NCBI GenBank assembly: GCA_007128995.1
Contig: SKWJ01000039.1
Coordinates: 1-23,790, forward strand
Source of the DNA: Paracoccaceae bacterium
Lineage (GTDB): Bacteria > Pseudomonadota > Alphaproteobacteria > Rhodobacterales > Rhodobacteraceae
DNA length: 23,790 nucleotides
Reading direction: 5' to 3'
Shown here piece after piece: positions 3,967 to 23,790 of this stretch. Positions within the stretch are counted from its first letter, which is position 1. Each line of letters begins with the position of its first letter. The translations under genes were made by a program, and so were the position numbers. Below the pieces are notes generated by a model. The model did not search any database, had not been told where the DNA came from, and saw only the letters and a program-made list of their open reading frames with translations.

Positions 3967-3988
3967 TTCGTCAGGTGGCAAACACTAG
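3967..3988 (-). repeat. Right terminal inverted repeat of the MITE-like element
   Basis: Inverted partner of 3658-3679 (21/22 identical). Its outer CTAG supplies the TAG stop codon of the gene at 3985-5439, so the end of that protein (GCC then stop) is set by the element or its target site. Confidence 0.6.
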
Positions 3989-5439
3989 CAGCAGCCCATC
4001 CGGTCGCGGAACCACGCCGCCAGTGCGGGCCGCAGTTTCGACCAGTCTTCGCGGAACTCTGCTGTGCCGGGAAGGGCATCGCGATAGGCGGCACGCAAGG
4101 CGCTCTCAGCCTCTGCCGCATTCAAGCCGACCAGAGTCCGGTTGGAAATTACGTGTCTGCCCTCGACCCATAGGCCGAGGATGTGCTCGCGGCGCGCGCG
4201 GGCAAACAGCAGCGCGCGGGGGTCCACGGGCAAAAGTCCGTCCCGGTCCAGCGCTGTCATATCGAGAAGCAGGATATCGGCGGGGGCCCCGGCAACAAGC
4301 TGCCCCCCTTCCGGCAAGCCCAGCGTGGCCCGGCCAGCACGGCAGGCCGCGCTCAGAACATCCTGCCGGCTCAAACCCTCGTCAAACCCGTGACCGGCGT
4401 GCAGCAAGCGCATGAGCCGCAATTCGCGCAGCGCGTCGTCATCCTCGTCAAGGGCGCACCCATCAAGCCCCATTGCCACGCGGACACCCGCGGCCTTCAT
4501 GGCGGTTACGGGTGCAATCCCGGATTTGAGATGCAGGTTCGATGAGGTGTTGATTGCGATGGTCGCCCCTGCGGCCGCGATAGCGGCCAGTTCTTCGGCC
4601 CGGCACCAAGTGCCATGCGCAAGCGTCAGGCGCGGACCAAGCAGGCCGATGCGGTCCAGAAACTGAACAATCCCGTCAGGAAAATGCTGATCTGCCCATG
4701 CCCGCTGGTAGCGCGTCTCCAGCAGGTGCATATGCACGCGCCGCCCGGTCCGGGCTGATGCCTCGGCGATGGCCTGCAACAAGTCTGGCGAACACCATTG
4801 CGGACCTGTTGGGCCAAATTGCACATCGACGCCGCGCCCCTTCAACGCTCCCGCCACGCGTTCCACGGCGTCGATCTGTGCCGCGATCGGCGGCATTGGC
4901 CGGTTGAGGGTCGCGGCAAGCCGACTTGCGGCAGCTACGTCACCATTGGCGGACAGAGCATCCAGCACAGGGCCGTGGTCGCCGTAAGTCAGGGGGTTTC
5001 GATCGCGCAACGAGAGTGCGAGCGCGATGCGCAGGCCGACCGCGTCCGCCGCGTCCGCGATTTGCAGGACTTCTTCTTCCAGCGGGACCAGACCCATGGG
5101 GCGCGTAAGATGCACCATCACGGCAGCCGAACCACCCAGTGCCGCGCGTGCCAGCGCCGCGCGTGCCGCCAGCCCTGCATCAACGGGCGGCATTGCGCCC
5201 AGGCCGACAAGCCAGGTTTCGAGAGGTTCTCCTGCCAGACCGAAGGATGTTGCGGACAAGGGGCGCGCGTGGTCATGCGCGTTGACAGGGGCGGGCAGCG
5301 CCAGCGCCGTGGTCTTTGCTCCGGCGGGGGCCGGGGTTACCGCCGTGATGCGGCCGTCGGACATATGAATCTCTGACGGACCAACGGGCCGGAAATCCGG
5401 CCCGACAAGGGCCTTGGCGACCAAAATGCTTTCGCTCAT
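3985..5439 (-). CDS. Amidohydrolase, SsnA/AtzA-like (predicted deaminase of an N-heterocycle), paralog 1
   Basis: A 484-residue metal-dependent amidohydrolase. Visible metal-ligand motifs are NAHDH (H55, H57), HMHLLE (H236/H238), AHGTW (H275) and GLDG (D326). The conserved acidic run DEDDDALREL follows. In the SsnA/AtzA/8-oxoguanine-deaminase branch these residues hold one divalent metal and hydrolyse amino or chloro groups from heterocycles, or open formimino groups. The C-terminal GAPADILLLD segment is the usual beta-sandwich return. It is strongly similar to the gene at 19665-21140: both share [28 protein letters not shown] and TSSNL.L.SGIAPV. It is transcribed divergently from a LysR gene, which probably controls it. 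The stop codon lies in the end of an inserted element. Substrate unknown. Confidence 0.85.
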   Translation of the reverse strand: MSESILVAKALVGPDFRPVGPSEIHMSDGRITAVTPAPAGAKTTALALPAPVNAHDHARPLSATSFGLAGEPLETWLVGLGAMPPVDAGLAARAALARAALGGSAAVMVHLTRPMGLVPLEEEVLQIADAADAVGLRIALALSLRDRNPLTYGDHGPVLDALSANGDVAAASRLAATLNRPMPPIAAQIDAVERVAGALKGRGVDVQFGPTGPQWCSPDLLQAIAEASARTGRRVHMHLLETRYQRAWADQHFPDGIVQFLDRIGLLGPRLTLAHGTWCRAEELAAIAAAGATIAINTSSNLHLKSGIAPVTAMKAAGVRVAMGLDGCALDEDDDALRELRLMRLLHAGHGFDEGLSRQDVLSAACRAGRATLGLPEGGQLVAGAPADILLLDMTALDRDGLLPVDPRALLFARARREHILGLWVEGRHVISNRTLVGLNAAEAESALRAAYRDALPGTAEFREDWSKLRPALAAWFRDRMGCC

Positions 5440-5570
5440 GTCATCTCCCCCAGCGCGTCCATCCGTCTGTACCTGATCACGCTATCGTCTTGTCTTCTGT
5501 CTGTCCTGTGCTAACTTCCGACCGCTGCGATGCAAAATGCGTAGCGCTCCAGCTGAAAAGAGGCTCCATA
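5440..5570. promoter_or_regulatory. Divergent promoter region between amidohydrolase and LysR gene
   Basis: This 131-bp gap between divergent starts is where a LysR-type protein normally binds its own control site. An imperfect dyad, CGCTGCGA...TGCGTAGCG (5523-5546), with a T/A-flanked centre is the best candidate. It falls close to the LysR start, as expected for autoregulation. No clear -35/-10 pair was found. Confidence 0.35.
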
Positions 5571-6485
5571 GTGCGACACCAGCGTATTCTTGCCTATGTC
5601 GATGCCGTCGCACGCGCAGGGTCCATCCGCAAGGCGGCGGAGCATCTTTCGCTGACGGCGTCGGCACTGAATCGCCGTATTCAGGATTTCGAGGAAGACC
5701 TCGGCACCCCTATTTTCGAGCGGTTGCCGCGCGGTGTGCGGTTGAACGCAGCCGGAGAATTGGCCATCCGCCATATCCGCGCCCAACGAGCGGACCTCGC
5801 GAAGCTGCACTCGCAGATCGCTGATCTGAGTGGGGTGCGTCGCGGTCATGTTGCCATCGCCTGTAGTCACGCCGTTGCCTATACCTTGCTGCCGCGCGAA
5901 ATAGGCGTCTATCGCGCCGCCTTTCCGGCGGTGACATTCTCGGTCACCGTGCTCGACCATGTCAGCGCTCAGCAGGCTCTGGCTGATTTTTCGGTGGACC
6001 TTGTTCTGGTGTTCGAGCCGTCGATTCAGGCAGAACTTCAGGTCATCTATGTTCTGGATGAACCCCTCTTTGCGATTGCCGCGCATGATCACCCCGCGCT
6101 GCAAAAGCCAGTGGTGCGCCTGCGGGATTGCATCGCGCACCCTGTCGCCCTGCCGGACCGCAGTTTTGGAGGGCGGCAACTGCTGGATCAGGCGTTGCAA
6201 CGACGCATGATCCGGCTGGACCCGGTCATCGAGAGCAATTCTTTCGAGATGTTGCGCAATTATGTTCTGGCCGAGAATGTGATCACCTTTCAGACCCTCC
6301 ATGGCGCACCGCTGGACGCGCATGACAAGCTTGCCGCCCGTCCCGTCGATGAGCGCGATGTTGCGCCGGGGCGGTTGGTGCTGGGTCAGTTGCGGGGACG
6401 CACATTGCCAGTGTCATCGGCCAAATTTGCTGACCAGTTGGCCCGCCGCCTTGATGCGGGGCGTAAACACGCGATTTCACAATAG
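5571..6485 (+). CDS. LysR family transcriptional regulator
   Basis: A 304-residue LysR protein. The N-terminal winged helix-turn-helix spans about residues 3-62, with AGSIRKAAEHLSLTASALNRRIQDFEEDLG as the core, followed by the linker helix and a two-lobed effector domain (about 90-290). I chose the GTG at 5571 because AAGAGG lies 7 nt upstream and it begins right at the domain. An in-frame ATG at 5490 would add 27 residues unlike the family. It is divergent from the amidohydrolase at 3985-5439 and 258 bp upstream of the TRAP operon, so either or both could be targets. The ligand is probably the imported substrate or an intermediate (inference). Confidence 0.88.
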   Translation: MRHQRILAYVDAVARAGSIRKAAEHLSLTASALNRRIQDFEEDLGTPIFERLPRGVRLNAAGELAIRHIRAQRADLAKLHSQIADLSGVRRGHVAIACSHAVAYTLLPREIGVYRAAFPAVTFSVTVLDHVSAQQALADFSVDLVLVFEPSIQAELQVIYVLDEPLFAIAAHDHPALQKPVVRLRDCIAHPVALPDRSFGGRQLLDQALQRRMIRLDPVIESNSFEMLRNYVLAENVITFQTLHGAPLDAHDKLAARPVDERDVAPGRLVLGQLRGRTLPVSSAKFADQLARRLDAGRKHAISQ

Positions 6486-6743
6486 CCTGTGCGGCTTGCA
6501 GTTGACTGGCACCCTTGGGGGGCTGATCCCGGTTGACCTGCATTCGCCATTTCAGTGAGCCATGCCATACCAACTGGCGGCGCTCATCCGCCGAGCGCTG
6601 CAACTTTTGCACCGCAGTTGTCTGAATTTAGCAGCATACACGATCACTCGAAGTCTTTAGTCAGTCATCAGTGCCCGAGTCGTCCTGATCATGACGCCTC
6701 GATTGCAACCGCCCTATTGGCCCTAACCTGCGAGGACACCTTC
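6486..6743. promoter_or_regulatory. Leader of the TRAP operon
   Basis: A 258-bp non-coding gap between the LysR stop and dctP. It is locally less GC-rich around 6615-6670 and must contain the promoter of the seven-gene plus-strand operon if that operon is independently transcribed. A TTGCAC at 6607-6612 is a weak -35 candidate with no good -10 partner. The dctP Shine-Dalgarno GAGGA is at 6732-6736. Confidence 0.3.
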
Positions 6744-7736
6744 ATGCCCAACTGTTTTTCCTGCCCGACCGCCGCGCTGCCTGCGCTTGCGCTTGGCGTT
6801 TCGCTTGGCATTGCCCCGCTGGCAGCCAGCGGTGACACTCTGATCCGGCTTGCCCACACTTTGAACCCAGCCGATGCGCGCCATCTTGCCGCCGAGCATT
6901 TCGGTGACCTGATCGCCGAGCGCAGTGAGGGAACGATCAGGGTCGAGGTTTATCCCTCGTCGCAACTTGGTGGTCAGGTCGAGATTTTCGAAGGCATGAA
7001 CCTTGGCCTGATCGAGATGAATATTGCTGGCAGCACCCATCTGGCAAACCTTCTGCCATCCTTCGGCCTGTTCGATCTGCCCAATCTGGCCCCGGATGAG
7101 GACAGCTTCATTGAAATGCTGGATGGCGAGATCGGTCAGCAACTGCTGGATATGCTGCCGGAAGTGGGGCTGCGCGGCCTTGCCTATTCCGAAGTCGGTT
7201 TTCGGCATGTCTATACCAACACCCCCGTGACCAGCATTGATGATCTGTCCGGCATGGTGATCCGCGTGCCTGGCAATCCGGTTTATAATGACACATTGTC
7301 GACCTTTGGTGCGCGCCCCACGCCGATGGCGCTGGGCGAAGTGTTTACCGCTTTGCAGCAGGGCGCGATTGCGGGGGCCGAGAACCTGATCGGGTTTTAT
7401 CGCAACTCGGGTCACTGGGAAGTCGCGCCCTATCTCGCGCTGACCTATCACGCGGCGTTGCCTTCTGTGGTCACAGTCTCTGAATCCTTCTGGCAGAACC
7501 TGAGCGCTGAAGAACAGGACATGGTGCGCGAGGCTGCCATCGAAGCTGCCCTGTTCGAGCGCCGGTTGTCGCAGGAACAGACGGAACTTGCGATGAGCGA
7601 GCTGCCAGAGCTTGGGGTGACAATTCAGGAAGTTGATCTGACCCCGTTTGCCGCTTTGGCACCAGAAATCCATGCGCGCCACCGCGACACCATCGGGGCA
7701 GATCTGCTCGACGCAGTCGCCGCGATGATGGACTGA
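6744..7736 (+). CDS. dctP: TRAP transporter substrate-binding protein, DctP family
   Basis: A 330-residue periplasmic binding protein. It starts with a Sec signal peptide (hydrophobic core about residues 10-27, likely cut after AAS at 29). The DctP signatures follow: GGQVEIFEGMNLGLIEM, then VIRVPGNPV with R174 (the arginine that normally pairs with the substrate carboxylate), then LGEVFTALQQGAIAGAEN at 198-214. The ATG at 6744 has GAGGA 7 nt upstream. An upstream in-frame ATG at 6555 would put 63 non-secretory residues before the signal peptide and is rejected. It delivers a solute, most likely a carboxylate-bearing one because R174 is kept, to the DctQM membrane pair encoded directly downstream. 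Confidence 0.93.
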   Translation: MPNCFSCPTAALPALALGVSLGIAPLAASGDTLIRLAHTLNPADARHLAAEHFGDLIAERSEGTIRVEVYPSSQLGGQVEIFEGMNLGLIEMNIAGSTHLANLLPSFGLFDLPNLAPDEDSFIEMLDGEIGQQLLDMLPEVGLRGLAYSEVGFRHVYTNTPVTSIDDLSGMVIRVPGNPVYNDTLSTFGARPTPMALGEVFTALQQGAIAGAENLIGFYRNSGHWEVAPYLALTYHAALPSVVTVSESFWQNLSAEEQDMVREAAIEAALFERRLSQEQTELAMSELPELGVTIQEVDLTPFAALAPEIHARHRDTIGADLLDAVAAMMD

Positions 7737-7760
7737 TACAGAGCAGGGCAGGGGGCAAAG

Positions 7761-8312
7761 ATGGCAAATGGACTCATGGCTGATTTGCGCACTGTCCCGG
7801 CCCGCGCGCTGCATGTGTTGACCCGGATCGACACAGGACTGGCCCGCGCCGAAACCGGTGCGGGCTTCGCGATCCTGACGACGCTGATTGCAGTGCTGAC
7901 ATTGCAGGTCGCGGGGCGGCAACTGCCTGGACTGTTTTTTCCGTGGACGGAAGAGGTCTCGCGTTTCCTGTTCGTCTGGCTGGCCTTTCTGGGCACGGCG
8001 CTGGCGGTTCAGCGCAATGCCCATGTTGCGATCCACGTCTTTGCGGACCGCACCGGACCCGGGGTGCAACTGGTTCTCGGGCTGATCACGCGGTCTCTGG
8101 TGGTGGGGTTTGCCCTGATCATGGTGTACTATGGCCTGCGCCTGTGCATGACGACGCGGATGGTCAGCACGGTGCTGCGTTTGCCCATGTGGTTGCCCTA
8201 TGCCGCGATCCCGGTCGCGGGAATGTTGATCGTTTTTCATGGGTTGATCGGAATGCTGCGGCTTTTGGCGGACGCGTATGACAGGCAGAAAAGTTCCGAG
8301 GTCGCGCAATGA
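7761..8312 (+). CDS. dctQ: TRAP transporter small membrane subunit, DctQ family
   Basis: A 183-residue protein with four predicted membrane segments (about 33-53, 66-86, 104-126 and 142-168). It carries the DctQ hallmark PWTEEVSRFLFVWLAFLG near the second helix. A G-rich Shine-Dalgarno (GGGGG at 7751-7755) precedes the ATG. A second ATG six codons on is possible. It forms the small subunit that couples to DctM for Na+-driven uptake. The stop overlaps the dctM start (ATGA), indicating coupled translation. Confidence 0.92.
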   Translation: MANGLMADLRTVPARALHVLTRIDTGLARAETGAGFAILTTLIAVLTLQVAGRQLPGLFFPWTEEVSRFLFVWLAFLGTALAVQRNAHVAIHVFADRTGPGVQLVLGLITRSLVVGFALIMVYYGLRLCMTTRMVSTVLRLPMWLPYAAIPVAGMLIVFHGLIGMLRLLADAYDRQKSSEVAQ

Positions 8313-9595
8313 CACTCGTCATAGGGATGACCGTCCTGATGCTGTTTCTGCTTGTGCTGGCAGTGCCGGTCGCCTTTGCCGTTGGCGTGGCGGCGGTGGC
8401 GGCATTGCAGGCGATGGGGATCAGCTGGCAGCTGGTGCCCGGGCGGCTGTATAACGGCATCGACAGTTTTACCCTGCTGGCCATTCCGATGTATATTGTC
8501 GCGGGCGGCTTGATGGTTCGCGCCGGAATTGCCGAACGGTTGATCGCGATGGCGCTGGCGCTGGTCGGGCATCGTCGCGGCGGATTGGGAAATACCACTG
8601 TACTCAGCGCAGTCATGTTTTCGGGCATTTCCGGCTCTACCAGCGCCTCGACCGCGGCACTGGGCTCGATCCTCATTCCATCGATGCATAAGCGCGGCTA
8701 TCGGCGCTCAGATGCGACCGCAATCCTGTCAGGTGCCTGTGCGGCGGGTATCCTTGTGCCACCGGCGATGTCGATGATCGTGTTCAGTGGCCTTACCGGC
8801 AGTTCTGTTTCGGCGCTGTTCGCTGCTGGCTTTCTACCTGCGTTCTGCTGTGCGATCGCGATCATGCTGTATGTGCGCTGGCACGCAGGCGCCGCCAATA
8901 TACAGGTCCTGCCCCGCCTGTCGCGTCCAGAGCGCTGGGGCGCTCTGCGCGCAGGCTTGCCTGCGCTGGTGCTGCCCGTGCTGGTGTTCGGCGGCATTTT
9001 CAGCGGTGTCTTTACCGCGACCGAGGCTGGCGTCGTCGCGGTGCTCTATGCCCTCGCGTTAGGTGGGCTCATCTATCGCAGCCTGACCGTCCATGACCTG
9101 TTCGAGGTTCTGGGCACGGCGGTCCTGACCTGCGGTGTGGTCCTGATCATGGTCACGATATCCGGTATCTTCTCATGGGTCCTGACCGCGAACCAGATCC
9201 CGCGCCTGTTGGTGGAAACGGTCGGCGCATATGAGCTGACACCCTTTGTGTTCCTGCTGTGCGTCATCGTCATTTTCGTGCTTCTGGGGATGATCATGGA
9301 CGAGTTGGCGATCATGGTCATGCTTATCCCGATCGCCCTGCCGCTGGTGAATGCGCTTGGTATCAGCCCGATCCATTTCGGGGTGGTCGTGATCGGCTGT
9401 GTCGGCATCGGGCTTTTTTCACCGCCTGTTGCCTCGGCCTTGCTGGTGGCCTGTTCGGTCGCGGGGGTGCGGATCGAGGATGTGGCCCGCCCGCTGTTGC
9501 CGCATCTGGTGATTGTCTTTGCCGTGATCGTCCTGCTGGCCGCATTGCCTGATTTGACGCTGTTTCTGCCACGTTTGATGGGGCTGTCGGTATGA
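8309..9595 (+). CDS. dctM: TRAP transporter large membrane subunit, DctM family
   Basis: A 428-residue polytopic protein (about 12 membrane segments) of the DctM/SiaM family. It has the typical FTLLAIPMYIVAGGLM and SGISGSTSASTAALGSILIPSM segments, plus LLGMIMDELAIMVMLIPIALPLV in the second half. These are the re-entrant and scaffold-type regions that carry Na+ and substrate sites in TRAP transporters. It overlaps dctQ by 4 bp upstream and the amidase gene by 4 bp downstream, so the import and hydrolysis genes are translationally linked. Confidence 0.94.
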   Translation: MTLVIGMTVLMLFLLVLAVPVAFAVGVAAVAALQAMGISWQLVPGRLYNGIDSFTLLAIPMYIVAGGLMVRAGIAERLIAMALALVGHRRGGLGNTTVLSAVMFSGISGSTSASTAALGSILIPSMHKRGYRRSDATAILSGACAAGILVPPAMSMIVFSGLTGSSVSALFAAGFLPAFCCAIAIMLYVRWHAGAANIQVLPRLSRPERWGALRAGLPALVLPVLVFGGIFSGVFTATEAGVVAVLYALALGGLIYRSLTVHDLFEVLGTAVLTCGVVLIMVTISGIFSWVLTANQIPRLLVETVGAYELTPFVFLLCVIVIFVLLGMIMDELAIMVMLIPIALPLVNALGISPIHFGVVVIGCVGIGLFSPPVASALLVACSVAGVRIEDVARPLLPHLVIVFAVIVLLAALPDLTLFLPRLMGLSV

Positions 9596-10797
9596 GCGCC
9601 GCAGCCACCAGCACTTCTGTGCCACATGGCATTTACGCGGATGCTGACATCCGTTGCGCCGCAACCGGGCGCGGCGCGCTTGACGGGCTGATCTTTGCCG
9701 CCAAGGATGTGTTCGATATTGCCGGGCGGGTGGCAGGGGCGGGCTGCCCGGCCCGTGCCGCGGTCGAGGCCCCGGCATGCGCAACAGCGCCCGTGATCCT
9801 TCGCTTGCTTGATGCTGGTGCGCGACTTGCCGGACTGACGACCACCGAAGAGATGATGTTCGGGGTATTGGGTCAGGGGGAAGGGGCGCCCGACAATCCG
9901 CGTGCGCCTGATCGTCTGGCGGGCGGGTCATCCATCGGCTCGGCGGTGGCGGTGGCGCGCGGGTATTGCGATTTTGCCCTTGGGACCGATACTGGCGGGT
10001 CGGTCCGGGTTCCGGCCAGTTTTTGCGGGCTCTTTGGCCTGCGCCCCAGCCATGGCGCTGTTTCCACGGTCGGTGTCGTGCCGCTCGCCCCGCGTTTTGA
10101 CACGGTCGGCTGGTTCGCTGCGACAGCTGAAAGCCTTGCCGAGATCGGCGGAGTGCTGTTGCGCAAGGGCCCGGTTGCGCCAGTGCCGCGCGCTGTCTGG
10201 GTGCCCCCGGAAATCACCGAAGGGCTGGATGCCGCGCTGAACGCAGCATTGTTTTCGCGCGCAAAGGCGCTGGCCGCGCAGCTTGGCGTGCCGCTGGCAA
10301 CATCGTCCATCGGGTCGGGCCCCGCCAGTTGGGGACAGGCCTGGAAAGCTTTGCAGGGCCGCGCCGCTTGGGACACGCATGGTCCCTGGATCGAGACTCA
10401 CCGTCCGGCGCTTGGGCCCGTTGCAGCCCGCCGCTTTGCCGCGGCCCGCGCGGTCAGTTCAGCAGAGTTCGACGCGGGTAATCAGATATGCACAGAGTTG
10501 GAGCGCGCGGTTTTGCCCCGGCTCGGGTCGGGGTGGCTGTTGGTCATGCCCACGACCCCGGGGCCTGCGCCTGCGCGCCATGCCCCTGAGCCCGAGCTTG
10601 AGGGCGCGCGCGCGGCGATCCTGTCGCGCACCGCACTGGCGGGCCTTCTGGGCTTGCCGGAACTCACTGCGCCTTGGCTCTCGGTGGGTGGCCTGCCTGT
10701 CGGGTTTTCGCTGATCGGCCCGCCGGGGGCCGATGCCGCGCTGCTTCTGCTCGCGCGGCAGGGCGCGGCCACACTCTCTGAAACACAACATGAATAG
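9592..10797 (+). CDS. Amidase, amidase-signature family
   Basis: A 401-residue amidase-signature enzyme. The Ser-cisSer-Lys triad is visible: K38 in FAAKDVF, cis-Ser S113 in GGSSIGS, and nucleophile S137 in GTDTGGSVR. The spacings (75 and 24 residues) equal those in fatty acid amide hydrolase. It is shorter than GatA (about 480), like small-molecule amidases such as allophanate or malonamate hydrolases. The start overlaps the dctM stop (ATGA). Next to a cyclic amidohydrolase in the same operon, it would suit cleavage of the linear amide or carbamoyl product made by ring opening (inference). The exact amide is unknown. Confidence 0.9.
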   Translation: MSAAATSTSVPHGIYADADIRCAATGRGALDGLIFAAKDVFDIAGRVAGAGCPARAAVEAPACATAPVILRLLDAGARLAGLTTTEEMMFGVLGQGEGAPDNPRAPDRLAGGSSIGSAVAVARGYCDFALGTDTGGSVRVPASFCGLFGLRPSHGAVSTVGVVPLAPRFDTVGWFAATAESLAEIGGVLLRKGPVAPVPRAVWVPPEITEGLDAALNAALFSRAKALAAQLGVPLATSSIGSGPASWGQAWKALQGRAAWDTHGPWIETHRPALGPVAARRFAAARAVSSAEFDAGNQICTELERAVLPRLGSGWLLVMPTTPGPAPARHAPEPELEGARAAILSRTALAGLLGLPELTAPWLSVGGLPVGFSLIGPPGADAALLLLARQGAATLSETQHE

Positions 10798-10807: not shown

Positions 10808-11599
10808 ATGAAACTAGGGCTCCGCGAGCGCGTCGCACTGATCACTGGACCGGCGAAGGGAATGGGGGCGGCAGTGTCGCACGCTTTCGCCGCAGAGGGC
10901 TGCCGCCTTGTGCTTGCAGGCCGCGACACAGATGCAATCGAACCTGTTGCCGCTGACATCCGCGCACAGGGTGGCCGGGCGCTTGTCGTCGCCTGCGACA
11001 TCACCCGAGAAGCTGATTGCACCGCCGCAGTCACAGCCGCCGAGGCAGAATTCGGTGGCGTGGATATCCTTGTCAATGTGGCAGGCGGTACAGGGCCTAT
11101 CGGAAAGACCGGTGCGGAAACCAACCGCGCAGAGTTTGACCAGATCATGGAACTGAATGTCGCCGGTCCCTTTGGCATGATGCGGGCCGTGGCCCCGGGT
11201 ATGAAGGCGCGCGGGTACGGCCGGATTGTCAATGTGGGCGGCACGTTCGGGATGCGTGGGCGCGCGGGCCGGCTGGCCTATTCGTCCTCGAAATGGGGAT
11301 TGCGCGGGCTGACCAAAAGCTTTGCGCTTGAACTCGGGCCTCATGGGGTCACGGTCAATATCGTTGCGCCCGGCATGGTTGATGGGCCGCGCTTTCGGAC
11401 CAAGGTCGTGCCGGAAATGGCCGCACGGCTGGGTATCACTGAAGAAGAAGCAATGGCGCGCCACGCTGCTGATTATGCCACGCGCCGTGTCTCGACCCCC
11501 GAGGATGTTGCCGCAGCCTGCGTGTTCCTCGCTTCGGACGTGGCAGCCCAGATCACCGGTGTTGATCTGCCGGTGGATGGTGGCTGGGCAACGCTATGA
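10808..11599 (+). CDS. Short-chain dehydrogenase/reductase, copy 1, lacking the usual catalytic serine
   Basis: A 263-residue classical SDR. The cofactor motif is TGPAKGMG (13-20), the NNAG equivalent is NVAGG (90-94), and the catalytic YSSSK holds Y158 and K162. The C-terminal ITGVDLPVDGG is typical. The position 13 residues before Tyr, normally Ser, is Gly145 in NVGGTFG, with Thr146 next to it. The partner SDR at 16520-17314 has the same change. GRD at 38-40 after the second strand suggests NADP(H) preference, though this is weak evidence. I chose the ATG at 10808 because AGGA lies 8 nt upstream. An ATG at 10790 overlapping the amidase stop would add six residues. It probably oxidises or reduces an alcohol/ketone intermediate of the pathway. 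Confidence 0.88.
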   Translation: MKLGLRERVALITGPAKGMGAAVSHAFAAEGCRLVLAGRDTDAIEPVAADIRAQGGRALVVACDITREADCTAAVTAAEAEFGGVDILVNVAGGTGPIGKTGAETNRAEFDQIMELNVAGPFGMMRAVAPGMKARGYGRIVNVGGTFGMRGRAGRLAYSSSKWGLRGLTKSFALELGPHGVTVNIVAPGMVDGPRFRTKVVPEMAARLGITEEEAMARHAADYATRRVSTPEDVAAACVFLASDVAAQITGVDLPVDGGWATL

Positions 11600-13168: not shown

Positions 13169-13180
13169 ATGGAGAATGAC

Positions 13181-14570: not shown

Positions 14571-14574
14571 GATC

Positions 14575-15612: not shown

Positions 15613-15767
15613 ATGTGCTGCCTCCTTGGTTGGGCTCATGTCACGAACGCCGAGACCCGCGCGACGCGTGACAGTCTGCTGCGATTGTGCGCCCGCGCGT
15701 CGGTTCTTTTATTGCGCATATGTTGCCGACCATAGTAAGGAGCGCAGGTCTGTGCGCGGATATTGCC
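15613..15767. promoter_or_regulatory. Divergent promoter region between Gfo/Idh operon and GntR gene
   Basis: A 155-bp gap between divergent starts. It contains the strong Shine-Dalgarno of the minus gene (CCTCCTT at 15621-15627) and an A/T-richer patch TTTTATTGCGCATATG at about 15707-15722, a likely promoter or operator zone. An AAGGAG at 15737-15742 lies 25 nt from the chosen GntR start, too far to serve it. No clean operator palindrome was found. Confidence 0.35.
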
Positions 15768-16519: not shown

Positions 16520-17314
16520 TCAGACAATCGTGCCCCCATCGACCAGCAGATCCTGCCCGGTGAAATTGGCAGCACCGGGGCCAAGCAGGAACAGCACGGC
16601 CATGGCGATATCTTTGTCGGTGCTCATCCGCTTCATGGCAGAGGTGGCGCGGAACGCATCATAGACATCCTCGTATGGTTTGCCTTCGCGCTCGGCGGCC
16701 TGGCCCAGTTGACGGGTCAGCCTTGGCCCCTCGACCCCTCCGGGCGAGACCATGTTCACCCGCACGCCGCGCGCGCCGACCTCAAGGGCCGCTGACTTCG
16801 TCAGTCCGCGCAATGCCCATTTGGTGGCGCCGTAGGCCCATGCCTGCCGCACGCCCTTGAACCCGAAGGTTCCGCCGATATTGACCACGCTGCCTGTGCC
16901 TGCCGCGATCATCCGGGGCAGAAAGTATTTCATGGTCAGAAAGCTGCCGATCAGATTGACATCAAAAACGGTGCGCACATCTTCCAGCGTGTGTTCCCAG
17001 ACCATCTTGCCGGATGGCCCGGTGCCCCCGGCGACATTCACGAGCCCCCAGGTATCTGGTGAGAGTGTCGCGGCAGCGGTATCGATAGCGGCCTGCACAG
17101 ACCCTTCATCCGTGATGTCGCAGCCATGCACGAGGGCGCTGCGGCCCAGTGCGCGGACTTCGGCTGCGACACTTTCCAGCGCGGCTGTATCCCGCCCGGC
17201 CAGCACGATATCGGCCCCGGCCGTTGCCAGCTCCAGCGTGATTGCGCGGCCCATGCCCTTGGCTGCGCCAGTAACGAACACGGCATGGCCGGTCAGTGCG
17301 AACGGGTGTGTCAT
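16520..17314 (-). CDS. Short-chain dehydrogenase/reductase, copy 2, lacking the usual catalytic serine
   Basis: A 264-residue SDR with TGAAKGMG (15-22), NVAGG (93-97), YGATK (Y161, K165) and a C-terminal FTGQDLLVDGG. As in the SDR at 10808-11599, the residue 13 before the tyrosine is Gly148 within NIGGTFG, with Thr149 adjacent. The start overlaps the stop of the upstream ABC permease gene (ATGA), which makes it the last gene of the ABC operon and leaves the start little in doubt. The two SDRs resemble each other (LAGRDT, CDIT, NVAGGTGP, KWGLRGLTKS/KWALRGLTKS) and probably act on related substrates. It is convergent with the GntR gene, 29 bp apart. Confidence 0.9.
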   Translation of the reverse strand: MTHPFALTGHAVFVTGAAKGMGRAITLELATAGADIVLAGRDTAALESVAAEVRALGRSALVHGCDITDEGSVQAAIDTAAATLSPDTWGLVNVAGGTGPSGKMVWEHTLEDVRTVFDVNLIGSFLTMKYFLPRMIAAGTGSVVNIGGTFGFKGVRQAWAYGATKWALRGLTKSAALEVGARGVRVNMVSPGGVEGPRLTRQLGQAAEREGKPYEDVYDAFRATSAMKRMSTDKDIAMAVLFLLGPGAANFTGQDLLVDGGTIV

Positions 17315-18120
17315 CGGGTCATCTTTCGTTCAAGCTGCACGGTCACGACATACAGGCTGACAGAAGCCGCCATACTGATCACGACCCCTGCCCACATGAG
17401 CGGCAGGCGCCTGAAAGACGACGCTTCAAGGATCAGAGTGCCCAGCCCCGGTGCCCCTGACAGCCATTCGGCCAGCATCGCCGACAGCACCGCCCCGGCT
17501 GCGGCCATGCGTATGCCGGTAAAGACATAAGGGGCCGCGAAGGGCAACCGCACCTTCTGAAAGGTCTGCCACCAGCTTGCACCGCACACATGCATCAGTT
17601 CCACAACATTCGCGGGCGCCGAGCGAAAGCCGCGCGCGGCATTCACCATCAGCGGAACGACGGACACCATCACCACGACCGCGACCGATGTGGCCTGCCC
17701 GCGCCCGAAGATCATGATCAGCAGGGGTGCGATGGCCAGTATGGGTGCTGTGCGCAGGATCACGATCAGCGGCAGGAAAGCCCGCGACAGCAGGTCCGAG
17801 AAGGTAAAGAGCGCCGCCAGCACGAGCGCGAGAACAAGCGCAAGCGCCATGCCCGCCAGCGTGGAGCGCAGGGTAAAGCCAAGCGCTTTCGACAGCACCG
17901 CCCACTCGCCGGTCAGCGCCCCCCAAACAGCCTGCGGCGACGGTGCCATGTAATGCGGAACATCAAGTGCCGCGATGATCCCCGCCCAGACAAGCAGCAG
18001 CGTGCCCATCAACAGCACCGCGAACACAATAGCGCGTCGCAGCGCGGCAAGGCGCTCCTGCGCCTCGGCATAGCGGCCGGGCAAAAGCCGTGCGTCGGGT
18101 TCCGCGACAGCGCGTGCCAT
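17311..18120 (-). CDS. ABC transporter permease, NitT/TauT family (second permease)
   Basis: A 269-residue membrane protein with about six segments. The first segment is at about 29-52. The cytoplasmic loop that docks on the ATPase is CGASWWQTFQKVRLPFAAPYVFTGIRMA (about 188-215), a typical EAA-type motif of the SsuC/TauC/NrtB permeases. It begins one base after the stop of the first permease and ends overlapping the SDR start. The two different permeases would form a heterodimeric channel, as in NMT1-type pyrimidine and some other NitT/TauT systems. The hydrophilic N-terminal 25 residues are longer than usual. Confidence 0.9.
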   Translation of the reverse strand: MARAVAEPDARLLPGRYAEAQERLAALRRAIVFAVLLMGTLLLVWAGIIAALDVPHYMAPSPQAVWGALTGEWAVLSKALGFTLRSTLAGMALALVLALVLAALFTFSDLLSRAFLPLIVILRTAPILAIAPLLIMIFGRGQATSVAVVVMVSVVPLMVNAARGFRSAPANVVELMHVCGASWWQTFQKVRLPFAAPYVFTGIRMAAAGAVLSAMLAEWLSGAPGLGTLILEASSFRRLPLMWAGVVISMAASVSLYVVTVQLERKMTR

Positions 18121-18121: not shown

Positions 18122-18901
18122 TCAGCGCCCCCCTGCCAGAGTGTCTGGCGGCCGGGACCAACCGACCACGCGCTGCTCGGCCAGCGCGATCAGGCCGTAA
18201 GCCAGCGCGGACAGGGCGCAGACAGTGACAATGGCAAGCCACGCAAGTGGGACGTTGAATGAAAAGAGCGCATAAACGATCATCGCGCCCAGCCCGCGAT
18301 CAGTCCCCATCCATTCCGCGATCAGCGTTCCAAGCAAGGCCAGGGGTGCCGCGATCTTGAGTGCGGCGAACAGATAGGGCAGCGCGCTTGGCAATGCGAG
18401 CTTGCACAACCGCTGCCAGCGCGATGCCGCGATCACGTGAAACAGCTCGTCCATGTTGCGGTCTGTGCTGCGAAACCCCTGAACACAGCCGATCAGCAAT
18501 GGAAAAAACGCCGAAATCGCGGCGACAGTGACATGCAGCCTCGGCCCCTGGCCGATGAAGATGACAAAGATCGGCGCGATGGCGATCAGCGGGATACAAT
18601 CGACCAGCACGGCCAGACTGACAATCGGGCGTTCCAGCATCCGAAGTGCCAGCGCGACAGCGGCCATGACCAGCGCCAGACCGGCGGCAATGGCATACCC
18701 CGTCACCGCCGAACGCACCGTGCGCCCGGCATGGTGAAGCAGATCGTCCAGCGCATCGGGCAGGATGGCCAGGACCTGACTGGGTGCGGGCACAGTCACG
18801 GGCAGCAGGCCGGCGGCTTTCGCAAGCTCTGCCCCGACCGCGACGGCCAGCAGAACCAGCGCTGGTGGCAACAGCGCCCCGTCAAGCAACCTGCCTGTCA
18901 T
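18122..18901 (-). CDS. ABC transporter permease, NitT/TauT family (first permease)
   Basis: A 259-residue membrane protein with about six segments. The coupling motif is [28 protein letters not shown], followed by [10 protein letters not shown] and then GLGAMIVYA, a layout seen in SsuC/TauC/ThiX-type permeases. The ATG overlaps the ATPase stop codon (ATGA). It pairs with the permease encoded one base downstream. Confidence 0.9.
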
Positions 18902-19668
18902 GCGGGCACCCGCGTGCCATCATCGAACAGGGCTGCGCGCACGTCGTTTTCGACAGCGTTGAAGGCGGGCAGGCGCATCATTTCAAGCCGGCGCGGACGC
19001 GGCAGATCGATATGGATGCGGTGTGCGATCCGGCCCGGATTGGCACTGAGCACCAGCACGGTATCGGCCATGAACACCGCCTCGCTGATCGAATGGGTGA
19101 CCAGCACGGCGGTGGTGCCTGAGGCCTTCCAGATATCCAGCAATTCCAGATTCATGCGCTGGCGGGTAATTTCGTCAAGGGCACCAAAGGGCTCGTCCAT
19201 CAACAGGACCTTGGGTTCAAGTGCCAGTGCGCGCGCGATTGCCACGCGCTGCTGCATGCCCCCCGACAGTTGCGATGGCCGCGCCTGCTCGAAACCGGCA
19301 AGCCCGACCATGGTGATCAGCGCGCGCGGGTCGCGCGCGGGGGCCTTGCCTGCGACCTCTATCGGCAGGCTGACATTGTCCAGCACGGTGCGCCATGGCA
19401 ACAAGGAAGCATCCTGAAAGACAAAGCCGATCTCATGCGAGCGACGCGCGATGGCAGGGTCATGATTGCCGATGCGGATTTCGCCGGTGCTCGGCGGCAG
19501 GACGTCTGCGATCAACCGCAGCAATGTGGACTTCCCGCATCCCGAAGGCCCGATCAGCGCCGTGAAGCTGCCCGAACGAAATGTTTCCGTGATGCCGTCC
19601 AGCGCTGTCACCTCGCGATCAGGCAGGCGGAACCGCTTCGAGACATCGCTCAGCACGATTTCGGTCAT
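18898..19668 (-). CDS. ABC transporter ATP-binding protein, NitT/TauT family
   Basis: A 256-residue ATPase. Walker A is GPSGCGKS (40-47), Q-loop Q85, signature LSGGMQQ (134-140), Walker B LLMDEP with D158 and E159, and switch histidine H192. The ATG at 19668 overlaps the stop of the upstream amidohydrolase gene (ATGA) and has AGAGGG 7 nt upstream. An upstream start at 19707 would overlap more and lacks such a site. The family (SsuB, TauB, ThiZ, NrtD) powers import of sulfonates, nitrate, cyanate or pyrimidines. Confidence 0.94.
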
Positions 19669-21140
19669 TCTGCGGCCCTCTTGTTGCGTGTTGGCGGGGG
19701 CACGCAATGGCAGCCTGCGTGCAAATATCCGCGCATGGCCTCGGCTCTTGCACCTTGTGCGGCAGTGTCCATGGGCGCGGCACCTGCCCGCGCCTGTGCC
19801 AGCAACTCCGCCTCGATCTCAGGCAGATCTATGCCCAGGCATCGCCCGTCAGCGACAATCCGGCGCCCGGCAACCCACAGCCCTGCGACATCGGCCTTGG
19901 TGGCGCGGGTCAGCAGCAGCTCAGACGGGTGGCACCTGTCTGCAATCGTGTCGGCCATGATCCGGTCGGTCGACAGCGCAAGCAGATCGGCGGGCGCGCC
20001 CGGTATGACGGTTCCGCCACCATCTTCGCCCAGAATCGCCGCGCGCCCATCGCTGAGCACAGCCCGCCACAGTGATTGCGGTGTCAGCACATCATTCAGT
20101 CCGAAGCCGCGCTGCAGATGCCAGAGCATGCGCAATTCGCGCAGTGCATCCTCGTCATCATCAAAGGCCATGCCATCCAGCCCCATCCCGAAACGCAAGC
20201 CCGCCGCCACGAAATCGGCCACGGGCGCTATGCCCGAGCGCAGCCGCAGGTTGGACGAGGTATTGACCGACACCATAACCCCGCGCGCGGCCAGCAATGC
20301 GCATTCATCAGGGCGCAACCATGTGCCATGCGCCACGGTCAGCCGTGGGGATAACAGCCCCAGCGCATCAAGATGTGCGATCAGCCCGTCAGGATATGTG
20401 GAATCGGCCCATTCGCGTTGTGCCCTTGTCTCCAACAGGTGCATGTGAACACGGCGGTCATGCCGGGCCGAGCGCGCAGCTATCTCGCCCAGAGTGTCCG
20501 CATCCACCCATTGTGGCCCTACTGGCCCATATTGCGGCAGGAAATGCGGCGAGGCGAGGGTGAACACCTCTTCTGCAGCATCGAGTTGCGCGGCCATTGA
20601 AGGCAACGCGCGGGGCCTGTTCGCGACTTCGGTGCGCAAGCCCTCGGGCAGGGCGTCGAGAAGCGGGCCGGGGTCACCATAACTCAGTGGGTTATGCCCA
20701 AGGACAGGCGCGGCGAATGCCACCCGCAGCCCGACATCGGCTGCGGCGCGCGCAACCGCGCAGGCTTCATCCACCAAGGCCTGTGGGTCCTGTGCGTTGT
20801 GGCAATGGTTCAGCACACCGACACCCGACAGCGCCAGACGCCCGAACGCGGCGGCAGCCCGCAGATAGGGGTCGACCTTTGGCTCTAGCGACAGGGCGGA
20901 AAGCCAGACCTCGAGCGTATCGTCTTGCGCGCCAAATGCCACAGTGCGCAGCCCGCGCCCATGGTCATGGGCGTTGCACAGCGCGGGCATCAGGATGTCG
21001 CCTGCCGCTGGTGCGCTGGGCAGGGGCGCAGGGGTGATCTGCGCGATCTGGCCGCCTGACAGATGCACCACGCCCGCCCCCTGCGCAGCCGTATCAGGGC
21101 CGCGCAGGAGGTGGGCAAAGGGGATCGACCCGTTGGTCAC
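19665..21140 (-). CDS. Amidohydrolase, SsnA/AtzA-like (predicted deaminase of an N-heterocycle), paralog 2
   Basis: A 491-residue paralog of the gene at 3985-5439. Metal and active-site motifs are NAHDH (H58, H60), HMHLLE (H232/H234), AHGTW (H271) and GLDG (D322). The acidic run after GLDG ([10 protein letters not shown]) is shared. The gene starts with GTG at 21140, which has GAGAGGG 7 nt upstream overlapping the stop of the binding-protein gene. It ends overlapping the ATPase start. An enzyme gene embedded between the binding-protein and ATPase genes of an importer implies that the imported molecule, or its direct product, is its substrate. Given the binding protein's family, an amino-substituted heterocycle is a reasonable guess but is not shown by the sequence. 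Confidence 0.88.
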
Positions 21141-21151: not shown

Positions 21152-22234
21152 TCAGCCAAGGCTTTCATGGGCGGTGCGGATCAGGTCCTGCGTCATGACA
21201 TCGTCAATGGTAAACTGCCCCGGCTCCATGTCGCCGGCAGCAACCGCAAATTCCAGACCTGCCTCAAAGGCATCCGGCTCGAGCCACAGCAGGCCATGCT
21301 CGGCGGCGGCACCGACAGGTACGAAATCTGCCATCATCCGGCTTTCTGCGATCTGTGCTTCCAGATCCAGCCCGCGCTGGCCATAGGTTTCGACCATCAG
21401 CTCGGCCATTTCCTCGGGGTTGTCGAGGTGCCACTGCCAGCCGCGTATTTCGGCGCGCAACCAACGGATCAGCAGGTCGGCATTTTCCTCGATCACGGAA
21501 TCCGAAGCGATCAGGACGCCGGCATGGCCGGGCACGCCAAGATCGTTCATGTAGGCAATCGCGAGATCCACGCCCCGCAGTTGCAGCATGACGCCCTGAT
21601 TGGTGGCCCAGCCATAATAGCCGTCCACCTGTCCTGCGGCCAGAATGCCGGGGTCAGTGCCGACCGGCACGAAGGTCACGCTATTCGTGTCGATCCCGGC
21701 GCTGCGCAGCAGGTTGGTCATCTGCGGGCGCGTGCCGTCGGGCATGGCGATGGTCTTGCCCACGAAGTCTTCGAGTGTGTTTATCGGATTTTCGGCAAGG
21801 CTCATCACGGCGCCGGGTGCGCGCTGCATGATCGCTCCGAAAGCCTTTACCGGCACTCCGGCGGTACGCGAGCGGATGGTGCCTTCGACATCGGTATCGG
21901 TGGTCGTGATCTGGCCCGTGGCGACGGCGACATCCGATCCGGTCGTGCCGGGGCCGCCCGGCAGAAACTCTGCCTCGATCCCTTCCTCTGCGAAATAGCC
22001 ATTGTGAATGGCCGCGAAGTGACCGCCGAACTGGATCGACTTGACCCAGCCAAGCTGGTGGATGGTCGTGTCCATCGCCTGCGCTGTGACGGGCAGGCCG
22101 AAAAGCCCCGCAGGCAGCGCCAGCGCGCCCGCAGAGGCGGCAGACGCCCCCAGAAAGTTTCGACGGCTGAGCGGACGCCCGGCATTCAGGCGGACGAGTG
22201 AGGGATGACGGGGCGGGGTGGTGCGATGATCCAT
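21152..22234 (-). CDS. ABC transporter substrate-binding protein, NMT1/THI5-like, Tat-exported
   Basis: A 360-residue periplasmic binding protein. It has a twin-arginine signal: SRRNFLG at about residues 23-29, a hydrophobic run to about 50, and cleavage likely after AQA at 53. The mature part opens with LGWVKSIQFGGHFAAIHNGYFAEEGIEAEFLPGG, the classic start of NMT1/THI5-like (SsuA/TauA/ThiY) proteins. QVDGYYGWATNQG in the middle is also typical. The ATG at 22234 is chosen because it places the Tat motif near the N-terminus; the longer frame to 22378 is not secretory. Known relatives bind sulfonates, nitrate, thiamine pyrimidine precursors or riboflavin, so the ligand here is open. Confidence 0.9.
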   Translation of the reverse strand: MDHRTTPPRHPSLVRLNAGRPLSRRNFLGASAASAGALALPAGLFGLPVTAQAMDTTIHQLGWVKSIQFGGHFAAIHNGYFAEEGIEAEFLPGGPGTTGSDVAVATGQITTTDTDVEGTIRSRTAGVPVKAFGAIMQRAPGAVMSLAENPINTLEDFVGKTIAMPDGTRPQMTNLLRSAGIDTNSVTFVPVGTDPGILAAGQVDGYYGWATNQGVMLQLRGVDLAIAYMNDLGVPGHAGVLIASDSVIEENADLLIRWLRAEIRGWQWHLDNPEEMAELMVETYGQRGLDLEAQIAESRMMADFVPVGAAAEHGLLWLEPDAFEAGLEFAVAAGDMEPGQFTIDDVMTQDLIRTAHESLG

Positions 22235-22528
22235 GGCGCGCTGCTTTCTGTGTCTGATGTTGCGATGACTGTCCGGTCGGTTGTGCTGCTCTGGGCAACT
22301 TGGGCGCTGCATTCCAGGCGAGAGAACAGCATGCCGTTCGCGCTTTCCTGAGTCTGGAATAGCGATTCGCTGCATCATGTTTTCGAAAATTCATCGATTA
22401 TCGAAAATTTAAGCATGTGAGCCCATCAAATGCGCAATGCGTTAACGTCAGGGCGCGAGATGCTTGCCGTTATGTGTCGCGTGAAAAACAGGCTTGCCTA
22501 TGTTCACGGCGACACGCCCAATTCACCC
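22235..22528. promoter_or_regulatory. Divergent control region between ABC operon and alpha/beta hydrolase operon
   Basis: A 294-bp gap between divergent starts. It holds an A/T-rich block at 22380-22412 in otherwise GC-rich DNA, with repeated TCGAAAATT units and a perfect palindrome. The stretch 22430-22528 could instead be coding if the hydrolase starts earlier. Confidence 0.5.
22380..22410. promoter_or_regulatory. AT-rich repeat/dyad, candidate operator
   Basis: TTTTCGAAAA at 22380-22389 is a perfect 10-bp palindrome. TCGAAAATT occurs twice as direct repeats (22383-22391 and 22401-22409), 18 bp apart, with ATCGAT between them. The 18-bp period puts the repeats on nearly the same helical face only if about 10.5 bp per turn is stretched, so they may be two half-sites and not tandem full sites. 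Location at the centre of the divergent promoter suggests a control site for both operons, possibly for the GntR/FCD or LysR protein of this locus. Confidence 0.5.
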
Positions 22529-23392
22529 ATGAACGAACAGTTGTCATCAGACAGTGTGGCCCAGATCAAGCGCCACGAGGTTTCCTTGGGCACCGAGCGC
22601 CTGAGTGTGCTATGTGCCGGGCCCGACGGCGGAGCGTCGATCATCCTCATCCATGGGCTTGGCTGGGATGCTGCGCGCTTGTGGTCCGCCCAGATGCAAC
22701 GGCTTGCGGTCGCCGGATGGCGTGTCCTGGCACCCGATCTGCGCGGCAATGGACGCTCGTCCTCCATCAGGGCCGAACTGCGTGTTCCCGATCTGGCCGA
22801 GGATGTGGCGGCCATGCTGGAGACCCTGGCCATTGAACGGCCAGTCCTTGTGGGGTTTTCCATGGGGGGCATGGTGGCGGCTGATCTGGCGCTGCGCCCG
22901 GGCACGGACCCCGCCGGGCTGGTGATCGCCTGTGGTGGCGTCACCTGCCCACCAGAGGCAGAGGCTGCGACCAACGCCATGCTGGCCAAAGCGGCGGAGC
23001 TGGGACCAGAGGCTTTTGCCCGCGCTCAGGCACAGGCTATCTTCGCGCCAGAATGGGCCGCGCGCAATCCGCAGGCTGTGGCCGAGTTCCAGATTTGGCG
23101 CGCGCAGATGGATCAGGAAAGCCTTCGCCACAGTTTTCGGGCGCCTTTCGGGTGCGACTATGCCCCAAGGCTGGGGGCAATCGAGTGTCCGTCCGCCGTC
23201 TTTGCCGCTGCCGAAGACAGTTTTGTCGATCTGAACGATGCGCGTGCGCTTGCTGCCAGATTGCCCGATGCACAGTTCGAGGTTATCCCCGATACTGGCC
23301 ATATGGCCCCGATCGAGGCGCCGGAAGCCTTTGACGATGCCCTGTCACGGTTCCTGCTCCGCGTCGCCCTTCGGCCGGAGCCAAGGGCATGA
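22529..23392 (+). CDS. Alpha/beta hydrolase (enol-lactonase/esterase-like)
   Basis: A 287-residue alpha/beta-fold hydrolase. The oxyanion strand IHGLGWD is at 41-47, PDLRGNGRS at 69-77, and the nucleophile elbow GFSMGGM has S111. The acid is likely D230 or D234 in AAEDSFVD, and H258 lies in DTGHMAP. The pattern (DLRGNGRSS, GFSMGGM) resembles 3-oxoadipate enol-lactonase and related small-ester or lactone hydrolases. The start is uncertain: ATG 22529 lacks a strong Shine-Dalgarno, and in-frame ATGs at 22430 and 22460 would add 23-33 residues without family likeness. It overlaps the next gene by ATGA, forming an operon with the pyroglutamyl-peptidase-like gene. Confidence 0.87.
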   Translation: MNEQLSSDSVAQIKRHEVSLGTERLSVLCAGPDGGASIILIHGLGWDAARLWSAQMQRLAVAGWRVLAPDLRGNGRSSSIRAELRVPDLAEDVAAMLETLAIERPVLVGFSMGGMVAADLALRPGTDPAGLVIACGGVTCPPEAEAATNAMLAKAAELGPEAFARAQAQAIFAPEWAARNPQAVAEFQIWRAQMDQESLRHSFRAPFGCDYAPRLGAIECPSAVFAAAEDSFVDLNDARALAARLPDAQFEVIPDTGHMAPIEAPEAFDDALSRFLLRVALRPEPRA

Positions 23393-23790
23393 TTGGCCTT
23401 GTCACAGGCTCGCAGCCTTTTGCCGGCCTGCCCGACAACCCCGCAGCCACCCTGCTGCCCAAGGTCGAGGGCGAAGTCTTTCACGGCGTCACGATCCGTA
23501 CCGTGACCACGCAGGTCCAGCTTGCGACCGTCCCGGAAACGGTTTGTGATCTGATCGCGCACACCCGCCCGGTTTTTCATCTTGCGCTGGGGCTCGCGCT
23601 GGGCGCACCTGCGCTGCGGCTCGAGACGACCGCGATAAACCGGCTGGACTTTGGCGTAGCCGACAATTTCGGCGCGCGCCCGACTGGTGGCGGACCAATC
23701 GTGCCGGACGGTCCGGCGGCGCAGTTGGCAACATGGGATGCCGCCGATCTGGTCGCGCGGTTGCGCGCTGATGGATTGCCGGCGGTCATA
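23389..23790 (+). CDS. pcp: Pyrrolidone-carboxylate (pyroglutamyl) peptidase I-like enzyme, 3' end beyond window
   Basis: The ATG at 23389 overlaps the hydrolase stop (ATGA) and opens 134 codons to the window edge. The pattern follows peptidase family C15: LVTGSQPFAGLPDNPA at the start (usual TGF.PFGG..NP), LALGLALGAPALRLETTAIN with the catalytic Glu at E79, ADNFG, and IVPDGPAAQLAT. It stops at GLPAVI, just before the expected S-x-AGTYLCN block with the catalytic cysteine. The glycine-rich N-terminal loop is altered (GSQPFAG). Typical C15 enzymes are about 200-215 residues and remove pyroglutamyl from peptides or hydrolyse similar lactam-linked amides. Inside a heterocycle-degradation locus it may have been recruited for a lactam-type or N-acyl substrate (inference). 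Confidence 0.8.
   Translation, partial: MIGLVTGSQPFAGLPDNPAATLLPKVEGEVFHGVTIRTVTTQVQLATVPETVCDLIAHTRPVFHLALGLALGAPALRLETTAINRLDFGVADNFGARPTGGGPIVPDGPAAQLATWDAADLVARLRADGLPAVI

Follow-up and report, generated by a model that had tools for sequence, protein, structure and literature searches.

Among the closest described counterparts of the locus analyzed here is the cyanuric acid/biuret cluster of Rhizobium, which in the available text of the source (PMC5806882) comprises a GntR regulator, a BMP-type ABC transporter, a formamidase, an isochorismatase-family hydrolase (BiuH), AtzD, and further hydrolases. The window studied here is one whole contig (C334, 23,790 bases) of a 545-contig Paracoccaceae genome that is 79% complete, and it carries a catabolic island that is probably a hybrid of two related modules for the degradation of cyclic ureide or amino-N-heterocycle compounds. 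Its likeness to the Rhizobium cluster lies in an AtzD-family hydrolase and FmdA-family amidases that occur also in sister clusters of the island, and both cluster types were found side by side in one genome (locus L194). In contrast, genes for the dehydrogenase SDR1, the dihydroorotase-like cyclic amidohydrolase (cAH), the aminohydrolase AH1, and the DUF3830 protein were not among the annotated genes within 8 kb of atzD on the two Rhizobium plasmids viewed, and the window is without the AtzD that the Rhizobium cluster has.

At the level of single enzymes, AH1 and its paralogue AH2 share the fold and the metal and HxxE residues with TrzN/AtzA and with MTA/SAH, isocytosine, and guanine deaminases, but they differ from them in their low identity (16-27%) and in scoring below the cut-offs of all models matched; a fold comparison of AH2 returned this broad deaminase/triazine-hydrolase neighborhood and indicated no substrate. 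The cAH enzyme keeps the HxH, Lys, Arg, Asn pattern, which is that of dihydroorotases. It is unlike the class I dihydroorotases, allantoinases, and hydantoinases in that it falls under the equivalog cut-offs (369 versus 482 bits for dihydroorotase PRK09060 and, just under, 350.6 versus 357.85 bits for allantoinase AllB, TIGR03178) and sits in clusters with importers, regulators, and other hydrolases. ErtD, the hydantoin-5-propionate amidohydrolase of ergothioneine utilization, is likewise a cyclic amidohydrolase that, by its model name, acts on a carboxylated hydantoin, but cAH reached 289 bits against its cut-off of 650.

Two Paralogous Enzyme Pairs and Two Importers in One Island

Gene families were assigned by Pfam matches over curated cut-offs, and NCBIfam models were used for finer roles. 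Every family named in a first-pass annotation of this DNA was thereby confirmed at its stated place, as follows.

3985..5439, minus strand: AH1, amidohydrolase-superfamily aminohydrolase (TrzN/AtzA/MTA-deaminase-like), divergent from LysR (PF01979, 111 bits)
5490..6485, plus strand: LysR regulator of the left module (PF03466, PF00126)
6555..7736, plus strand: TRAP binding protein DctP (PF03480, 243 bits); its start is uncertain, with further in-frame candidates downstream at 6717 and 6744
7761..8312, plus strand: TRAP small permease DctQ (PF04290)
8309..9595, plus strand: TRAP large permease DctM (PF06808, 337 bits)
9592..10797, plus strand: amidase-signature amidase, distantly AtzE-like (PF01425)
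10808..11599, plus strand: SDR1, NAD(P)-dependent dehydrogenase, kernel gene (PF13561, 187 bits)
11636..13168, plus strand: cAH, dihydroorotase-like cyclic amidohydrolase, kernel gene (PF01979)
13169..13594, plus strand: DUF3830 protein, cyclophilin-like fold (PF12903, 114.9 bits against a gathering score of 26)
13638..14582, minus strand: Amidohydro_2 enzyme, lactonase-like (PF04909)
14575..15639, minus strand: Gfo/Idh/MocA dehydrogenase (PF01408)
15687..16490, plus strand: GntR/FCD regulator of the right module (PF07729, 64 bits; PF00392, 50 bits)
16520..17314, minus strand: SDR2 (PF13561)
17311..18120, minus strand: ABC permease 1 (PF00528)
18122..18901, minus strand: ABC permease 2 (PF00528)
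18898..19707, minus strand: ABC ATPase (PF00005); the ATG at 19668 is the likelier start
19665..21140, minus strand: AH2, paralogue of AH1
21152..22378, minus strand: NMT1/THI5-type binding protein with a twin-arginine translocation signal (PF09084, PF10518)
22430..23392, plus strand: alpha/beta hydrolase, PcaD/RutD-like (PF00561)
23389..23790, plus strand: C15 hydrolase, pyroglutamyl-peptidase-like, cut short where the contig ends (PF01470)

The left gene group runs from LysR through the TRAP genes, the amidase, SDR1, and cAH to DUF3830, with AH1 diverging from LysR across 50 bp. The right group runs from the NMT1 gene through AH2, the ATPase, and the two permeases to SDR2; the GntR/FCD, Gfo/Idh, and Amidohydro_2 genes adjoin it, and the alpha/beta hydrolase and C15 genes diverge from NMT1. 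Neighbors on the same strand are spaced by -8 to +36 bp, the exceptions being LysR-DctP (69 bp) and a 43-bp ATPase-AH2 overlap that corresponds to the longest ATPase start and depends on the start choice.

The identity is 45% between AH1 and AH2 and 46% between SDR1 and SDR2, and therefore the island holds two paralogous enzyme pairs together with two importers, each half having its own importer (TRAP on the left, NitT-type ABC on the right), its own AH, and its own SDR. Both halves were also found singly in relatives, the right half in L035, L053, L062, and L217, and the left-type core in L080, L088, L193, L212, and L216. The right-module relatives (L035, L036, L037, L038, L039, L040, L044, L053, L062, and L217) hold varying subsets of the C15, alpha/beta hydrolase, NMT1, AH2, ABC, SDR2, GntR, SDR1, cAH, Gfo, and Amidohydro_2 genes, with SDR2 at 59-78% identity and GntR homologs at 44-66% in L035, L037, L040, L044, L053, and L062; an IPNS-like 2-oxoglutarate-Fe oxygenase was present in the same locus in 8 of the 9 relatives with C15. 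A second set of relatives (Azospirillum, Bradyrhizobium, Tardiphaga, Rhodoplanes, Aquabacter, Rubrivivax, and others) combines LysR, NMT1-type binding proteins, SDR1, cAH, ABC, and AH genes, and LysR homologs in sister clusters are 41-55% identical.

These data bear on the reading of the first-pass annotation that the genes form one pathway, in which all 20 would act one after another on the same ureide, lactam, or aminopyrimidine. The genes are indeed contiguous in the window, and the right module of relatives can include SDR1, cAH, and DUF3830, which lie in the left operon of the window (L035), so that the halves share kernel genes. Nevertheless, there are two importers, the AHs and the SDRs each form a pair within one family, either half stands alone in relatives, and AH1 and AH2 belong to different clades with different neighbors, all of which makes a single linear pathway unlikely.

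The left operon of the window looks like a recombination of parts, because the window cAH groups with right-module cAHs in a tree. The matches to the TRAP genes in the mapped loci were weak (26-31% in L093, L097, L110, L116, L204, L205, and L209, plus one in L216). Amidase homologs of 40-42% identity were found in L111, L198, and L215, in the last two near a PF09663 enzyme, and the amidase had no match at 1e-40 in 36 congeners. This amidase scored 382.5 bits with PRK08310 (cut-off 391) and 156 with the AtzE model (426-461). Also below their cut-offs were the Amidohydro_2 enzyme with the L-fuconolactonase model (98 versus 400 bits) and the alpha/beta hydrolase with PcaD (121 versus 256 bits) and RutD (105 versus 238.5 bits). 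Contig C104 of the same genome (L017) carries a third AH copy, 77% identical to AH1, divergent from a LysR copy (85%), at 1-846 and 981-2435; the pair is followed by an open reading frame at 2326-3279 that looks NAD(P)-binding, and the contig is another fragment of a left-type module.

Conservation of an SDR-cAH Kernel

An AH-family alignment scan of named genomes matched 445 relatives, of which the best 80 loci were kept; neighbors were assigned as tblastn matches inside the fetched flanks, loci at contig ends being incomplete. Class frequencies were taken from 385 Alphaproteobacteria genomes for AH and from 372 for cAH, SDR1, and PF09663, two overlapping but not necessarily nested samples, and the best few candidates per genome were scored. 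With thresholds of E ≤1e-90 for cAH and ≤1e-75 for SDR1, orthologs were present in 6 and 5 of the 372 genomes, respectively (own genome included). The cAH gene was next to SDR1 in 4 of the 5 SDR1 genomes and one gene away in G333, where an isochorismatase-like gene lies between them, and the association was significant without the own genome (Fisher p = 6e-9). AH was present in 4 of the 5 SDR1 genomes; G333, with no AH match, has a cyanuric acid hydrolase immediately beyond SDR1. In the sixth cAH genome, G282, cAH is paired with SDR2 in a right module. In the genus of the window, cAH was found in 4 of 37 genomes; the cluster of G022 (LysR, binding protein, SDR1, cAH, ABC, DUF3830) is without AH. 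Because cAH pairs with an SDR, sometimes without AH, the conserved kernel is SDR plus cAH, and AH is frequent but dispensable.

Among the 80 AH loci, 25 hold both SDR1 (at least 55% identity) and cAH (at least 45%) in the fetched flanks, accompanied by a cyanuric acid hydrolase in 7, by an FmdA-family enzyme in 6, by both in none, and by neither in 12. Both enzymes do occur together outside the 80, in the Skermanella plasmid L116 and in G383 (L197). One might suspect that hydrolase operons with nothing in common came to lie together by chance on a plastic genome, given that the window is a 23.8-kb metagenome-assembled contig in a 545-contig assembly and that the amidase went unmatched in the congeners, but the neighborhoods recur in the class sample and in sister clusters and the gaps are short, so that we give this explanation almost no credence. 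The gene families co-occur across many Proteobacteria, contrary to the lack of co-occurrence that would have refuted the first-pass proposal, and this supports a catabolic island for a cyclic nitrogen compound. Five loci with SDR1-cAH-AH clusters (L041, L042, L054, L055, and L211) carry subsets of extra enzymes, namely Rieske oxygenase, PhyH and IPNS-like oxygenases, D-glutamate-cyclase-like and glutamine-synthetase-like proteins, and HyuA/HyuB.

Properties of cAH, SDR1, and DUF3830

Residues R74, N104, H325, and K156 of cAH are invariant in 24 sequences, and we take the first three to be the substrate-carboxylate residues of dihydroorotase and the lysine to be the carboxylated one. If the island were an established purine or pyrimidine route (for allantoin, hydantoin, dihydropyrimidine, or ergothioneine) built from unusual paralogs, this would fit the near miss of cAH on the allantoinase model, its passing of the broad subfamily model pyrC_multi (304.7 versus 279.05 bits), and the AllB label of its relatives in some records. 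However, cAH is under the cut-offs of all of the equivalog models listed for these roles, ErtD included, it keeps the dihydroorotase-type Arg and Asn, at which positions allantoinases differ from dihydroorotase, and enzymes of urate, allantoate, or Rut metabolism are not named by any of the Pfam and NCBIfam matches above cut-off; such a route is therefore rather improbable. A literature search on the pterin deaminase/lumazine pathway yielded nothing useful, and no bacterial pathway from 5-azauracil or oxonic acid was found in the literature searched.

SDR1 orthologs in other clusters are 58-73% identical, and DUF3830 orthologs in sister clusters 52-78%. A fold search with a DUF3830 model (pLDDT 78) returned cyclophilin-like proteins (3kop, TM1367) and KslB-type Pictet-Spenglerases and indicated no function, and no paper on the domain was found in the literature searched.

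The AH1 and AH2 Aminohydrolases

The best NCBIfam match of both aminohydrolases was 8-oxoguanine deaminase (133 bits for AH1 and 125 for AH2, cut-off 532), and they were far under the cut-offs of all of the NCBIfam models matched, ammeline-hydrolase-type and SsnA models included. In the earlier label SsnA/AtzA-like, the SsnA part is loose, the SsnA subfamily model giving 62 versus 455.5 bits. The active-site set HxH, H, HxxE, H, D (H58, H60, H234, E237, H271, D322) is invariant in 27 sequences, and presumably each residue has the catalytic role usual for it. Within the family, 3045 proteins, each representing one 90% cluster, reached E ≤1e-60 among 7997 scored, and the names among the 120 matches listed (some of them partial) go no further than amidohydrolase, deaminase-related hydrolase, and N-ethylammeline chlorohydrolase.

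In a maximum-likelihood tree of 33 AHs (hand-picked, as were the 24 rows of the cAH tree), AH1 and its C104 paralogue fell, with 100/100 support, in a clade of 16 sequences. Its remaining 14 members have a cyanuric acid hydrolase in the cluster in 10 cases (2 also with FmdA), FmdA only in 3, and neither in 1, and on the AH2 side neither enzyme was present in the fetched flanks of any of the 16 other rows. A different conserved cluster with an AH on the AH2 side was observed in L117 (Rhizobium johnstonii pRL11, 922-9272), L050, L063, and L105; it contains an NMT1-type ABC transporter, FAD oxidoreductase, CaiB CoA-transferase, enoyl-CoA hydratase, LysR, and AH. These Rhizobium-type loci probably represent a different pathway and were set aside.

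Association with Cyanuric Acid Hydrolase

The LysR/SDR1/cAH/AH1 set of the sister clusters comes with a cyanuric acid hydrolase or, alternatively, with an FmdA-family enzyme. All 16 ring-opening enzymes tested (L061, L087, L088, L090, L091, L099, L101, L102, L114, L116, L179, L193, L194, L196, L197, and L215) scored 490-574 bits with the cyanuric acid hydrolase equivalog model NF052395, whose cut-off is 360. The nearest solved structure of those from L099 and L088 is the Azorhizobium enzyme 4nq3 (E values of 9e-142 and 2e-161 for the two), and they keep the equivalents of its Lys156 and Ser226, which form the Ser-Lys dyad, and of Arg188. Barbiturases have Gln at the Arg188 position, according to the available text of the source of these residue numbers (PMC4051656), so that the NF052395 scores and the Arg188 equivalent rule out a barbiturase in these clusters. 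For the isochorismatase-like gene that occurs in sister clusters, the scores of the L061 copy do not support an identity as biuret hydrolase (108 versus 370 bits) or as RutB (113 versus 378 bits).

PF09663 was present in 22 of 54 AH-bearing genomes versus 20 of 372 class genomes. For AH and PF09663 in the class samples, the Fisher test gave p about 1e-4, which is approximate because the 385- and 372-genome samples overlap but are not necessarily nested. The 54 comprise 42 locus genomes, which account for all 22, 8 Rhizobium-type genomes, and 4 others from the genome sample; one genome is counted twice, L035 being apparently that of G001. Of the 80 locus genomes, 50 were examined, the 30 dropped being mostly of the Rhizobium type, and the contrast of 22/42 with 20/372 is unmatched, since the former were chosen through their AH loci. 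PF09663 lay within an AH/SDR1-type cluster in 13 of the 22 genomes and elsewhere in 9. In L194 (G423, a Histidinibacterium genome to which locus L038 also belongs), an AH1-type/SDR1/cyanuric acid hydrolase cluster adjoins a biuret hydrolase/formamidase/BMP-transporter cluster. Allophanate hydrolase AtzF (TIGR02713) was present in G011, G074, G333, and G383, that is, in 4 of 10 genomes.

The cyanuric acid hydrolase in sister clusters and the fold of AH, nearest to deaminases and TrzN/AtzA, would also be expected if the island were a xenobiotic s-triazine (atz/trz-type) cluster that had been recruited recently. Nevertheless, divergence is deep across many families (AH2 is 43-59% identical to other AHs, with one at 76%, and SDR1 orthologs are 58-73% identical), AH is about 20% identical to TrzN/AtzA, and no cyanuric acid hydrolase was found in the genome of the window, which makes recent recruitment very unlikely.

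Proposed Pathway

The chemistry that we infer for the two modules is as follows. The TRAP and NitT-type ABC importers would bring in two related molecules, from which AH1 and AH2 would hydrolytically remove an amino group (or substituent) at a ring amidine. SDR1 and SDR2 would oxidize a ring or side-chain carbinol, and cAH, acting as dihydroorotase does, would open the ring of a cyclic ureide that bears a carboxylate. The amidase on the left and, on the right, the Gfo/Idh and lactonase-like pair and the alpha/beta and C15 hydrolases would then break the products down for nitrogen and carbon. In many sister clusters, the same upstream genes stand together with a cyanuric acid hydrolase or an FmdA-family (acetamidase/formamidase) enzyme, suggesting an intermediate near the cyanurate/biuret level. 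The substrate probably belongs to the carboxylated cyclic ureides or amino-N-heterocycles. That cyanuric acid hydrolase is found in many sister clusters points to a ureide of this kind or to a triazine-type ring, and an oxidized purine or 5-azapyrimidine, such as an oxonate-like compound, is our best guess, unproven, as the most economical substrate class.

A more specific proposal is tentative, and we consider it more apt to fail than to hold. The SDR1-cAH-AH1(-DUF3830) kernel might supply the cyanuric acid hydrolase family with its natural upstream pathway, converting an oxidized purine or 5-azapyrimidine (e.g. oxonate or 8-oxoguanine damage products) to cyanuric acid, on which an AtzD-type hydrolase would act, or to a formyl-biuret-like product, on which an FmdA-family enzyme would act instead. 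The window might then hold a branch whose end steps are altered and to which a paralogous module is fused, the latter serving a related compound that carries a polyol or hydroxy-acid side chain.

Several observations weigh against these interpretations. PF09663 had no match in the genome of the window (G000, 79% complete) or in its sister G001 (100%), and AtzF was not above cut-off in either; the end steps there must therefore differ, and the route need not pass through cyanurate. Neither cyanuric acid hydrolase nor FmdA was in the flanks of 12 of the 25 SDR1-cAH loci, and AH, missing from the SDR-cAH neighborhoods of G022, G282, and G333, is not indispensable. The window cAH (motif HVHFRVPG) has Val after the key Arg, where the other cAHs whose motif was displayed have Asp or Glu, and it does not group with the cyanurate-cluster cAHs. 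The split between the AH clades is not clean, since in L198, outside the tree, an AH2-like enzyme lies near a 42% PF09663 enzyme, and the TRAP-amidase part is without a close counterpart in the clusters of relatives. Finally, no riboswitch names a ligand: the window gave two sub-threshold matches, and the 14 loci scanned gave none at gathering scores.

The first-pass interpretation is thus partly supported: the island is real, conserved, and, as far as searched, undescribed, and in agreement with the earlier statement no named pathway with this gene set is described in the literature searched. The available text of papers on cyanuric acid hydrolase and biuret/triuret hydrolase (PMC4051656, PMC7948467, PMC6557486, PMC12342508, PMC5806882, and PMC3758960) does not describe the neighborhood, and a prior description elsewhere on the family is possible. 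The link to cyanuric acid hydrolase sets the island apart from a generic N-heterocycle island by making it more specific and of greater interest, and this enzyme gains a candidate natural upstream pathway, none being described in the literature searched. With a conserved cluster in which it stands beside a dehydrogenase, a dihydroorotase-like enzyme, and an aminohydrolase, its physiological source becomes open to testing, and a context is also provided for DUF3830 and for a large family of aminohydrolases. Cyanuric acid was reported in 2025 in Paramecium secretions (PMC12342508, available text).

No tRNA genes were found in the window. To the left of the island, 1.2 kb from AH1, lie genes for a beta-lactamase-family serine hydrolase (526-1611) and a CPBP-type protease (1922-2749), which are probably unrelated to it.

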